From Nanohaloarchaea archaeon SW_7_43_1 (GTDB taxonomy: Archaea; Nanohalarchaeota; Nanosalinia; Nanosalinales; Nanosalinaceae), in NCBI GenBank assembly GCA_003009795.1, contig PXPE01000001.1, positions 756,739 through 820,738 of the forward strand: 64,000 nt of DNA, written 5' to 3'. The notes beneath the pieces are model-generated. The model had not been told where the DNA came from, did not search any database, and worked only from the letters and a program-made list of their open reading frames with translations. The position numbers and the translations under genes were made by a program. This document shows positions 3,791 to 45,311 of this stretch, piece by piece (positions within the stretch are counted from its first letter, which is position 1; each line of letters opens with the position of its first letter).

Positions 3791-4435
3791 TTATTTTTCT
3801 CTGTACTTCTCACATATCTCACAGCTTTCATCATGAGCAGTACAGCCATTTCTGCCGTGTGTAATCATCAGAATATGAAAAGCATATTTGATTTCATCCG
3901 GTACCTTTTCCTCCATTACATTATGAGTCTTTGTTCTGGAAGCGTTCTCGGGTACTAGACCCAGCCTCTTAGATAATCGGTGAACATGAGTGTCAACCGG
4001 GAAGGTCGGCATTTTGAAATGGAAGCAAAGGATTACAGAGGCAGTCTTCGGACCGATTCCAGGTATATCGGTCAGCCATTTCTTCGCACCGCTTATATCC
4101 ATTTCTTCGAGAAAGTCAATACTGTATCCGCCCTGATCTTCACGGACAATTTTCAGGGCTTCTTGAATACGCTCCGCTTTTGTAGGACCAAGACCGGCGA
4201 TCCGGATGGCTTCGATAAGCTCCTCTCTGTCAGCGTTTTCAATCGCCCTGTAGTCATCTTCATACTTATCTTTCAGGTTTCTGAAGGCTTTGTCTCTGTT
4301 TATATCGTTCGTGTTCTGGGATAGAATAGTTTCAATCAGATAGTCAATACCCGACATGTTATCGGGTTCCTCGGGTTCACCATATTTTTCGAGTAATTCC
4401 TGGTATATAGATCTTACTTTCTCCTTATCTTCCAT
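3791..4435 (-). CDS. nth: Endonuclease III-like DNA glycosylase/AP lyase
   Basis: The helix-hairpin-helix is at IPGIGPKTAS with catalytic Lys130, and the catalytic Asp148 lies in FPVDTHVHRL. These define bifunctional Nth-type enzymes that remove oxidised pyrimidines. The C-terminal iron-sulphur loop has Cys198, Cys205 and Cys208 (C-x6-C-x2-C), but the position expected for the fourth ligand is Lys214, the last residue. The cluster is therefore incomplete or uses another ligand. Length (214 aa) is normal. It is followed on the same strand upstream by the Vms1 homologue. Confidence 0.93.
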   Translation of the reverse strand: MEDKEKVRSIYQELLEKYGEPEEPDNMSGIDYLIETILSQNTNDINRDKAFRNLKDKYEDDYRAIENADREELIEAIRIAGLGPTKAERIQEALKIVREDQGGYSIDFLEEMDISGAKKWLTDIPGIGPKTASVILCFHFKMPTFPVDTHVHRLSKRLGLVPENASRTKTHNVMEEKVPDEIKYAFHILMITHGRNGCTAHDESCEICEKYREK

Positions 4436-43173: not shown

Positions 43174-43425
43174 ATGTCTAAAGGTTCTATAGGTGGGATG
43201 CTTGACAAACTACCAAGTATCGATATAATTACAATGATAGTACTTGGTTTCGATGCCTACATTATCTACACTAAAGTTGACAGATTTGAAAGAGATGCAT
43301 TATTCGATGTAAGCTTCGATCCATACGCCATAGCGTTCCAAGTATCCGTTCTGCTTGTACTGGTTTATCTAATAGAGTTCATCCACGATAAAAAGAAAGA
43401 TAGCGGAGGAGGTCTTCATCCTTAA
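43174..43425 (+). CDS. Small two-helix membrane protein
   Basis: An 83-aa protein with two hydrophobic helices (IDIITMIVLGFDAYIIYT and IAFQVSVLLVLVYLIEFI) separated by a charged loop and a basic tail (HDKKKDSGGGLHP). I do not recognise the family. Its TAA shares TTAA (43422-43425) with the convergent PUA-domain gene. Confidence 0.7.
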   Translation: MSKGSIGGMLDKLPSIDIITMIVLGFDAYIIYTKVDRFERDALFDVSFDPYAIAFQVSVLLVLVYLIEFIHDKKKDSGGGLHP

Positions 43426-43859
43426 GCTTCTATAATTTTTCTCAGTTCCTTTGATCTTCCTTTCGGTATCCTAGAGGAAACCTTCTCATCCTTATACATC
43501 CCGCATCCGATCACTCTCTCTCCGAACATTATCGCAACATATCCCTCTTCCATATCCAGAGTTCTCTCAATCATTTCCCTTCTCTCTAGAAGACCAATTA
43601 ACTCCGCTTTATCTACTTCAACTATACTTTCTTCTATTTGATCCTCTAATAACTGTAGCGCATATGTTGTGGGTTTCAGGGCTCTGCCAGTGTCTCTAAC
43701 GCACCTAATTCCTTGAGTCTCATATTCAAGACTTTCGCCGGTACCGGTATGAATCCAGTAATCGCCCGAGATTTTTTCCATTCTTAAAGATGATTCTTCT
43801 CTATCAACCCCAAATCTTCCCTCGAGGTAGTCCCACGCTTTATTTTCTGAACTTGGCAA
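43422..43859 (-). CDS. PUA-domain RNA-binding protein beside an NSUN methyltransferase
   Basis: The C-terminal GYVAIMFGERVIGCGMYKDE followed by VSSRIPKGR is a PUA-like domain, and GIRCVRDTGRALKPTTYALQ lies in the linker. It overlaps the end of the NSUN-type methyltransferase gene by 20 bp. In other organisms the PUA domain is fused to that enzyme, so this is probably its separate RNA-binding subunit. Haloarchaea have similar split pairs. Confidence 0.75.
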   Translation of the reverse strand: MPSSENKAWDYLEGRFGVDREESSLRMEKISGDYWIHTGTGESLEYETQGIRCVRDTGRALKPTTYALQLLEDQIEESIVEVDKAELIGLLERREMIERTLDMEEGYVAIMFGERVIGCGMYKDEKVSSRIPKGRSKELRKIIEA

Positions 43860-44715
43860 CGTAGATCACCCCCGATTCAAAGTGATGTGGATAAATCCTG
43901 ACGGTTTTATTCATTTCCTGACCGTACTGATTTCCTTCAAAACTTTTAACGCCTTTTTTGTGATCCGGATTCATTTCGATTTTCTCCAGTTGAAGACCTG
44001 TGTTTTCTAGTAGGTACTCGACAACTTCCTCATTTTCCTGTGGATTTATTGTACAGGTAGAGTAAACCATTTTGCCTCCCTCTTTTAGCAATGTCTCTGC
44101 CTTCTCTCCCAGCTGTTTCTGGAGCTTGGAAAGATCCTCCTTTTCATACTGATCTGCAGGTTCAAACTTCCTTCTGGCTCTGTCTCCTTCTCCTGTGCAG
44201 GGAGCATCCAGAAGTATTCTATCATATTTCCGGTCCTCCGGAATCCTTCTTCCATCGTAGTTTGTTACTGAAACAGAAGCAGAACCTGTCCTGTAGATGT
44301 TTGCGTGGAGACTTTTCAGTCTCTGAGACGATTTATCGTTCGCAGCGATTTCACCATTATTCTCTATCTTTGAAGCGATCTGAGTGGTCTTGCCTCCTGG
44401 AGCAGCGCACATATCAAGTATTCTTTCGTCTTTCTCAGGATTCAGAGCCTGTACAGGAAGGGATGCTGACTCCTCCTGTACATAGTACTCGCCAAGCCAG
44501 TGCATCATTGACTTGCCCGGTGTCTTTTCTCCATTAAGCCTGAAGACCTCAGAGTTCCAGCCGGACTGTTCTACTTCGTCAAATCTTTCTTTCAGCCTCT
44601 CCTCAAAATTTTTTCCAGCCCTTATGCTGTTTTTCCTGACGGTTGAGAGCGCCGGTCTTTTACACGCATGCTTGAATGCCTGCCAGTCATCGATCAAAGG
44701 TTTATACTGTTTCAT
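43840..44715 (-). CDS. RsmB/NOP2/NSUN-family RNA cytosine-C5 methyltransferase
   Basis: SAM-binding motif I ILDMCAAPGGKTTQIA, motif IV LLDAPCTGEGDRARR with one catalytic Cys, and motif VI MVYSTCTINPQENEEVV with the other Cys define the family. It methylates cytosines in rRNA or tRNA. The N-terminal part is short, and the PUA domain is absent and probably supplied by the overlapping downstream gene. Length is 291 aa. Confidence 0.93.
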   Translation of the reverse strand: MKQYKPLIDDWQAFKHACKRPALSTVRKNSIRAGKNFEERLKERFDEVEQSGWNSEVFRLNGEKTPGKSMMHWLGEYYVQEESASLPVQALNPEKDERILDMCAAPGGKTTQIASKIENNGEIAANDKSSQRLKSLHANIYRTGSASVSVTNYDGRRIPEDRKYDRILLDAPCTGEGDRARRKFEPADQYEKEDLSKLQKQLGEKAETLLKEGGKMVYSTCTINPQENEEVVEYLLENTGLQLEKIEMNPDHKKGVKSFEGNQYGQEMNKTVRIYPHHFESGVIYVAKFRK

Positions 44716-44738: not shown

Positions 44739-45311
44739 TTATTGCTGTAGATCTTTCAAGCTAGTCTGTCCGGTTTCATCCTTCCCGAACGCTTTTCTCA
44801 AATCTTTCTCTAGTTCCGGAGTCTTCGATTGATCATATAGAGTCGCCGCAGGATGATAAATAGGCATTATTTTTCGTCCTTCTCGTGAGAAAATCCTGCC
44901 ATGCATACTGGTTATTCCCTCTTTCTTCCCTAGAAGCTCTTTCGATGCAAAGTTACCTAACGTCAAAACCATGTCTGGGTCAACTTCTTCTATCTCCTTC
45001 TCTAGCAGAGGTTTCCAGGCCCTGATCCCTTCCTTTTTCGGGTCTCTGTTCTCCGGAGGCCTTATCTTTACCAGGTTGGTAATATAGATTTCAGACCGGT
45101 CAATATCTATATCGTTCAGGATTTTGTTCAGTTTCTTTCCAGCCCTGCCGACGAATGGCTCTCCTTGTTCGACCTCGTTCTCTCCTGGCGCTTCTCCGAC
45201 CATCATCACTTCAGCATCTCCAGGGCCGACAGCAGGCACAAACCTCTCCTCGTTGAAATACTCCTCATCCAGTTTCTGGAAGAAATCACTGTATTTTTCT
45301 CTGAAAGCCAT
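44739..45311 (-). CDS. Family 4-like uracil-DNA glycosylase without Fe-S cysteines
   Basis: Motif A GEAPGENEVEQGEPFVGRAG and motif B YHPAATLYD match family 4 uracil-DNA glycosylases, as does ITNLVKIRPPENRDP. Family 4 enzymes normally hold a 4Fe-4S cluster through four cysteines, but this 190-aa protein contains no cysteine. It should still bind uracil. It removes uracil arising from cytosine deamination. Confidence 0.9.
   Translation of the reverse strand: MAFREKYSDFFQKLDEEYFNEERFVPAVGPGDAEVMMVGEAPGENEVEQGEPFVGRAGKKLNKILNDIDIDRSEIYITNLVKIRPPENRDPKKEGIRAWKPLLEKEIEEVDPDMVLTLGNFASKELLGKKEGITSMHGRIFSREGRKIMPIYHPAATLYDQSKTPELEKDLRKAFGKDETGQTSLKDLQQ

Follow-up and report, generated by a model that had tools for sequence, protein, structure and literature searches.

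A cysteine-free uracil-DNA glycosylase of family 4 type, probably without iron–sulfur cluster, in nanohaloarchaea and haloarchaea

Results

The Locus and Its Reading Frame

The window analyzed here is a stretch of 64,000 nucleotides from the genome of Nanohaloarchaea archaeon SW_7_43_1, whose reverse strand carries at 44739–45311 a coding sequence (P0001) for a 190-residue uracil-DNA glycosylase (UDG) which, judging from its open reading frame and from profile, motif, and fold matches, is probably a cluster-free derivative of family 4. The gene is the first of an apparent co-directional run continued by 43840–44715 and 43422–43859. The same strand encodes, 23 bases past the end of the UDG gene, an RNA methyltransferase of the NOP2/Sun type (TIGR00446, above cut-off), and the third gene of the run, also on the reverse strand, is a 145-aa open reading frame (43422–43859) with a TTG start that found no family match in Pfam and NCBIfam. 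A tRNA-Tyr gene lies upstream of the UDG gene.

As stated in the original prediction, the protein encoded at 44739–45311 contains no cysteine at all. Its open frame extends 54 codons upstream of the ATG, and this extension holds one cysteine and no ATG, GTG, or TTG, so that a corrected start, which had been envisaged as a way to recover the missing residues, cannot restore the cysteine set, and a start-codon artefact is ruled out. A second, cluster-bearing UDG elsewhere in the same genome was also considered and rejected, as no other PF03167 match at E ≤ 1 occurs in its 956,550 bases. The bare absence of cysteine is in itself unremarkable: with cysteine at 0.78% in the window's open reading frames of at least 150 aa, a 190-aa protein has a 0.23 chance of containing none, and 7 of the 40 such frames, the UDG counted, are cysteine-free. 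The relevant change is the absence of cysteine from the four positions that hold the cluster ligands, for which chance, although it stands for the bare zero count, is rejected by the fact that the change is common to a whole clade (see below).

The gene also appears to be maintained by selection. Against its nearest relative dN/dS is 0.081; of six wider pairs, four are saturated at synonymous sites (pN/pS 0.14–0.21) and the two with a dS of about 2 give dN/dS values of 0.067–0.070. These low ratios indicate purifying selection on the protein and, together with the occurrence of the same loss in 15 genomes, rule out a sequencing error or a pseudogene.

Family Assignment

In profile searches the protein reaches 164.4 bits against TIGR00758 (family 4 UDG; cut-off 125.3) and 113 bits against the Pfam UDG family PF03167, and remains below the cut-offs of NF040953, the archaeal type-4 UDG equivalog (163.4 bits; cut-off 250), and of TIGR03914, the UdgX model (103 bits; cut-off 190). 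The two motifs that define family 4 according to the accessible part of PMC10359453, GE(A/G)PG (motif A) and HPAA (motif B), had been predicted to be intact, and both are present in sequence and alignment: GEAPG at residues 39–43 (45183–45197, reverse strand) and HPAATL at residues 153–158, which includes H153 (44838–44855, reverse strand). Between them, the alignment places YITNLVKIRPPENRDP at residues 76–91 (45039–45086, reverse strand), a segment in which the uracil-contacting N79 and the N88 of motif 3 are kept and in which Ile83 takes the position of ligand Cys 3. The catalytic set of the Thermus thermophilus enzyme Tth UDGa (E41, E47, F54, N80, N89, and H155) corresponds here to E40, E46, F53, N79, N88, and H153. 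Over the 159 sequences that we aligned, the equivalents of E41, E47, N80, N89, and H155 are identical throughout and that of F54 is found in 158, with one gap; G42 is represented by Ala in the window's UDG and in most relatives. The codon of E46, the equivalent by alignment of the E47 that blocks thymine in Tth UDGa, lies at 45174–45176 on the reverse strand and encodes Glu in 159 of 159 sequences.

By analogy with the roles described for the uracil pocket of Tth UDGa in the part of PMC5387724 available to us, E40 (main chain) and N79 (side chain) would bind uracil, E46 would exclude thymine, N88 would position the water, and H153 would stabilize the leaving base. Since the residues of this pocket are kept, the chemistry should equal that of family 4.

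The AlphaFold2 model of the protein is confident (pLDDT 92.3, pTM 0.87), and its predicted fold is closest to family 4 structures, which occupy the best six Foldseek matches (4zbx, 1ui0, 4zby, 1l9g, 1ui1, and 1vk2). In VIA comparisons, Z scores are 24.6–25.5 for family 4 structures, 22.6–23.8 for UdgX, 18.9 for 2d3y, which we take to be a family 5 structure, and about 14–15 for TDG/MUG. Among UDGs, families 1 (UNG), 2 (MUG/TDG), 3 (SMUG), and 6 (HDG) are free of a cluster and share the superfamily fold. MUG/TDG structures, however, score far lower than those of family 4, and the cluster loss that led to the window's UDG appears to fall within the family 4 tree. With regard to family 6, which had been named as a possible alternative, nothing points in that direction, and profile and fold favor family 4; the tree was built without family 1, 3, 6, or BdiUng references. 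The original assignment to the family 4 type is thus borne out by profile, model, and structural searches.

Compared with known enzymes, the protein shares with family 4 UDGa (T. thermophilus 1ui0, S. tokodaii 4zbx, and T. maritima 1vk2) the fold, the length, motifs A, B, and 3, the published uracil-pocket residues, and the spacing of the loop between ligands 3 and 4. These enzymes differ from it by their four cluster cysteines and by an Asp after the catalytic Glu, where the window's UDG has hydrophobic residues and Val. UdgX has the same overall fold, but the features attributed to it in the accessible part of PMC10359453, namely the cysteines of a 4Fe-4S cluster, a GEQPG motif A, and a KRRIH loop, are absent here, as are the GLAPA and HPSPLN motifs and the cluster cysteines that the same part of that source gives for family 5 UDGb. 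The protein is therefore of family 4 in ancestry, motifs, and fold, and lacks the four cysteines of the family 4 cofactor, in place of which we find F11, L14, I83, and W99.

Loss of the Cluster Ligands in One Clade

When the four cluster-ligand positions were scored in the 159 aligned relatives, C-C-C-C was found in 81 sequences, the state of the window's clade in 49, C-C-H-C in 13, that of a second clade, which has D at position 3 and Y at position 4 (hereafter the D/Y clade), in 10, and six further states once each. None of the 49 clade members, the window's UDG included, has a cysteine at any of the four positions; 37 of them contain no cysteine at all, 10 contain one, and 2 contain two. 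The first position is occupied by F or L in 49/49 (F11 here, codon 45279–45281, aligned in a divergent N-terminal region), the second by L, V, or I in 49/49 (L14, codon 45270–45272, also in a divergent stretch), the third by I or V, with one G and one A, and the fourth by an invariant W (W99, codon 45015–45017), all codons being on the reverse strand. The Ile claimed for the third position is confirmed by the alignment as I83. Positions 3 and 4 are separated by 15 residues in all 159 sequences. Because 53 of the 178 alignment columns are at least 95% hydrophobic, four columns drawn at random would all reach this level with P of about 0.007, a value to be read knowing that buried sites are expected to be hydrophobic anyway.

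In an ordinary family 4 enzyme, the cluster pins the N-terminal segment to the loop between Cys 3 and Cys 4 that bears the RPPxNR motif. According to the part of PMC5295032 available to us, including earlier work cited there, the cluster stabilizes the enzyme and the loop anchored by two of its cysteines, and Cys-to-Ser changes in the family 4 UDGs of P. furiosus and A. fulgidus cost about 40% of the activity, a result from which loss of the cluster appears tolerable. On this basis, the most economical reading is that the F, L, I, and W of the clade most likely form a hydrophobic core, which would pin the loop of unchanged length in place of the cluster, and F11, L14, I83, and W99 would then be in mutual contact, as their alignment with the four ligands suggests. 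We hold it to be very probable that the protein is an active UDG, as predicted from its residues, that descends from family 4, has permanently lost the [4Fe-4S] cluster, and has a hydrophobic core at the cluster site.

Mixed ligand sets do exist elsewhere in the alignment. C-C-H-C enzymes, with His for ligand Cys 3, make up 13 of the 159 sequences (L109, L182–L186, L189, L193, L195, L197, L200, L204, and L208), of which 12 come from genomes of a phylum-level search (30 loci fetched) and one is titled Gemmatimonadaceae; C-C-D-C, C-C-S-C, and C-C-C-H each occur once. Such sets lend some plausibility to the idea that the window's UDG still binds a metal cluster through noncysteine ligands or a partner protein. 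However, the residues of its clade (F/L, V/L/I, V/I/G/A, and W) include no usual iron ligand, and we regard this idea as highly improbable.

Distribution and Phylogeny

A UDG match (PF03167, E ≤ 0.01) was detected in 19 of the 28 genomes of the window's phylum, one each, which makes it the sole match of the UDG superfamily at this threshold in every one of them. All four ligands are lost in 15 of these 19 proteins (13 genomes of the window's family, G004, and G008), three genomes have a four-Cys UDG (G001, G005, and G007), and the protein of G003 (L020) combines the ligand set L-T-C-F with a very long branch. Nine of the 28 genomes gave no UDG match, among them one of 96% completeness (G010), so that the gene may not be indispensable in this phylum.

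Among the 80 best of 558 confirmed stretches in named genomes, UDGs of this kind come from Nanosalina, Nanosalinarum, and further Nanohaloarchaea; Haladaptatus, Natrialba, Natronococcus, Haloterrigena, Halosimplex, and a Halobacteriales strain carry a related haloarchaeal set. In the haloarchaeal class as a whole, 28 of 292 genomes carry a copy of the clade, with best matches at E values of 5e-60 or better and the next at 5.8e-40. Two of these copies are damaged: that of G176 has an internal stop and that of G239 lacks the stretch around F54. The counts leave out L155 (internal stop; too short) and the duplicates L149 and L158, hence 25 of the 28 copies, as well as the haloarchaeal paralogues L140–L148, which belong to other subfamilies, and other duplicates, L039–L043 among them. 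None of the 25 distinct copies has a cysteine at a ligand position, and all have W at the fourth. The UDG superfamily is matched 4 to 6 times in each of nine named haloarchaeal carriers, and these matches include one or more family 4-like copies that have all four Cys. Alignment with the family 4 enzymes of Nanohaloarchaeota and Haloarchaea, a check proposed along with the original prediction, thus reveals a loss common to a clade of 49 members, 15 of them from the window's phylum and 34 haloarchaeal.

The tree was inferred from 97 of the 159 sequences after removal of the four ligand columns. In this tree, the nanohaloarchaeal and haloarchaeal cluster-free UDGs form one clade (support 100/97), within which each of the two sets is set off by a branch (94/77 and 94/97); the nearest four-Cys relatives of the clade are haloarchaeal (97/86). 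A single loss in the ancestor shared by the nanohaloarchaeal and haloarchaeal members would therefore suffice for all 49 of them. A horizontal transfer between haloarchaea and nanohaloarchaea, with the loss arising in one of the two groups, would be compatible with this single loss. The sparseness of the haloarchaeal copies (28/292 genomes), the haloarchaeal nearest four-Cys relatives, and plasmid carriage speak for such a transfer: the best eight plasmid matches of the UDG are all haloarchaeal, and the three that were read have no cysteine, with V at the third ligand position and W at the fourth. By contrast, the placement of each set on one side of a branch leaves room for an old split and makes the direction of a transfer unreadable, so that we give the transfer an even chance. 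The genes neighboring three haloarchaeal plasmid copies were examined and provide no functional clue. A viral or phage origin was rejected, as viral contigs gave four relatives at 37–39% identity and 76 phage records all fell below 60%, with 47% the best among the matches listed.

A Second Cluster-Free Clade and the Residue after the Catalytic Glu

The ten family 4-like UDGs of the D/Y clade (L054, L064, L069, L072, L073, L076, L081, L097, L107, and L117) also have no ligand cysteine. Nine of their records are titled Patescibacteria or kin and one (L097) Anaerolineaceae; in the three genomes searched, each such UDG is the only PF03167 match, and L117 has three cysteines elsewhere in the protein. 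The D/Y clade stands apart in the tree (100/93), and a single origin of both cluster-free clades, for groups picked after inspecting the sequences, was rejected (AU p 0.0077), which is consistent with a separate loss in this mainly patescibacterial clade.

Both clades have no Cys at the four positions, keep the active site, and have replaced the Asp after the catalytic Glu. They differ in their residues at ligands 3 and 4, in the residue substituted for Asp, and in origin. When we considered columns with a majority of at least 80% in both sets, only two separate the window's clade from the four-Cys sequences: the fourth ligand and the residue after the catalytic Glu. This residue, encoded here by the codon of V47 (45171–45173, reverse strand), aligns with an Asp in 81/81 four-Cys sequences and is Val in 49/49 members of the window's clade and Ala in 10/10 members of the D/Y clade; it is Asp in 13/13 C-C-H-C sequences and in five of the six single states. 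The remaining one, L098 (C-C-D-C), has Ala and adjoins the D/Y clade in the tree (94/81). L099, however, lacks Cys at every ligand position and yet keeps the Asp, so that the two separate cluster losses were accompanied by a loss of this Asp as a tendency and not as a rule. This Asp may be linked to the cluster loop.

Val in place of a conserved Asp beside the catalytic Glu could alter the substrate range of the enzyme. Its presence throughout the clade, the 4 to 6 superfamily matches in each of nine haloarchaeal carriers, and the lack of any UDG in 9 of 28 phylum genomes would also suit a protein that no longer excises uracil, either a DNA-binding protein or one of altered specificity, whose cluster eroded along with the functional change. 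Against this, the uracil-pocket residues described in the literature are all present (with Ala for G42), the KRRIH loop of UdgX is missing from the sequence, and in the nanohaloarchaea with a match this is the only superfamily member found, which makes the loss of excision improbable and an active family 4 derivative the preferred reading.

Endonuclease III in the Same Family

The window encodes a second DNA glycosylase with incomplete cluster motifs, a homologue of endonuclease III (Nth) at 3791–4435 on the reverse strand, in which profile and alignment show three of the four C-terminal cluster cysteines: the protein ends soon after C-x6-C-x2-C, without the fourth. Its nearest solved relative is EndoIII-1 of D. 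radiodurans, and a second copy in the same genome (G000:C1:48877-49467) has Thr for the third Cys. Nth-like matches occur in 28/28 phylum genomes, none of them above the Nth cut-off. In the window's family, all 30 copies read, from 19/19 genomes (11 with two copies), are incomplete when aligned to C-x6-C-x2-C-x5-C, and all retain the Lys and Asp at what are presumably the catalytic positions. Incomplete copies also occur in G003 (L235) and G004 (L227); the main copy is complete in G001, G002, and G005–G009. Four cysteines are present in 21 of the 22 haloarchaeal sequences read as controls (24 of 37 matches fetched; L266, L267, and L281 are among the Nth loci left unparsed).

The haloarchaeal Nth of L279 (G090), with C-C-P-C, groups together with a paralogue inside the nanohaloarchaeal Nth clade (100/99), in a tree with long branches and unsettled bootstrap. 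This grouping may be a second hint of gene exchange between haloarchaea and nanohaloarchaea.

Most of the 30 copies have three cysteines left, and some have an extra one nearby (e.g., G014, G015, G018, and G025), so that a rebuilt or a [3Fe-4S] cluster is possible. In the part of PMC9268735 available to us, the C199S variant of D. radiodurans EndoIII2 has in part a [3Fe-4S] cluster, no protein is obtained after Cys-to-Ser changes at the other three positions, and MutY is inactive when refolded in the absence of its cluster, results that point against a cluster-free Nth. As G008 combines a cluster-free UDG with a complete Nth, the change in UDG may have come first.

Discussion

From an evolutionary perspective, it was originally suggested that the loss of the cluster could be an adaptation to oxidative, high-light brines or to iron shortage. 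The occurrence of the clade in nanohaloarchaea and haloarchaea (record titles) and the incomplete cluster motifs of endonuclease III in the same family would agree with such a cause. Nevertheless, SufB/SufD-type matches (PF01458) are kept throughout the window's family (19/19 genomes), with two adjacent matches in the window's own genome, and are absent from the three phylum genomes with a four-Cys UDG. More precisely, PF01458 is found in 14 of the 15 genomes with a cysteine-free UDG; outside the window's family it occurs in G008 and G009 and was not found in the seven f2, f3, and f4 genomes (G001–G007, 61–93% complete), which include G001, G005, and G007, with their four-Cys UDG, and G004, with a cysteine-free one. 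The genomes G005 and G007 lack a SufB/SufD match, yet have a four-Cys UDG, a complete Nth, and XPD. Moreover, all nine named haloarchaeal carriers searched retain a four-Cys copy, the Cys motif is complete in 21 of the 22 haloarchaeal Nth sequences read (of 37 matches), and the second loss, of different origin, occurred mainly in Patescibacteria. As for other cluster proteins, an XPD-type match exists in 24 of 28 phylum genomes, and the six XPD sequences displayed, that of the window's genome included, have four Cys in the cluster domain, which we assume to be its ligands; the large-subunit primase, with weak matches that pass the cut-off in 10 of 28 phylum genomes, was not used. The SufB/SufD matches and the four-Cys XPD together suggest that iron–sulfur assembly has probably not been given up. 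The adaptive cause is therefore unsupported and, in our view, unlikely, and the pattern would be better explained if a structural cofactor that the enzyme can do without had been lost than if the cells had moved away from iron.

A wider reading would be that the base-excision glycosylases of this nanohaloarchaeal family are, as a group, independent of [4Fe-4S] clusters or shedding them while SUF-type genes and a four-Cys XPD are kept. We put it forward as a tentative view, more doubtful than not.

According to the available parts of PMC9266487 and PMC9268735, why DNA glycosylases carry iron–sulfur clusters is an open question, the proposals being that the cluster acts as a structural pin, that it helps to bind DNA, or that it is a redox sensor used in the search for lesions. 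Among the matches listed in our literature search, no title or beginning of an abstract describes a cysteine-free family 4 UDG; the key phylogenetic papers lie outside the scope of that search. Natural enzymes that keep the active site and presumably lack the cluster, in two separate clades in which one residue beside the active site has changed in parallel, allow a direct comparison of the roles proposed for it. If these enzymes were as fast and stable as their four-Cys relatives, the cluster would be a replaceable pin in family 4. An iron-independent UDG from a brine organism might also be easy to make. If the endonuclease III copies were cluster-free as well, the lineage would allow the charge-transport model of lesion search to be tested in nature and, should the wider reading hold true, lesions in this family would be searched for without cluster-mediated charge transport along the DNA from one glycosylase to another.
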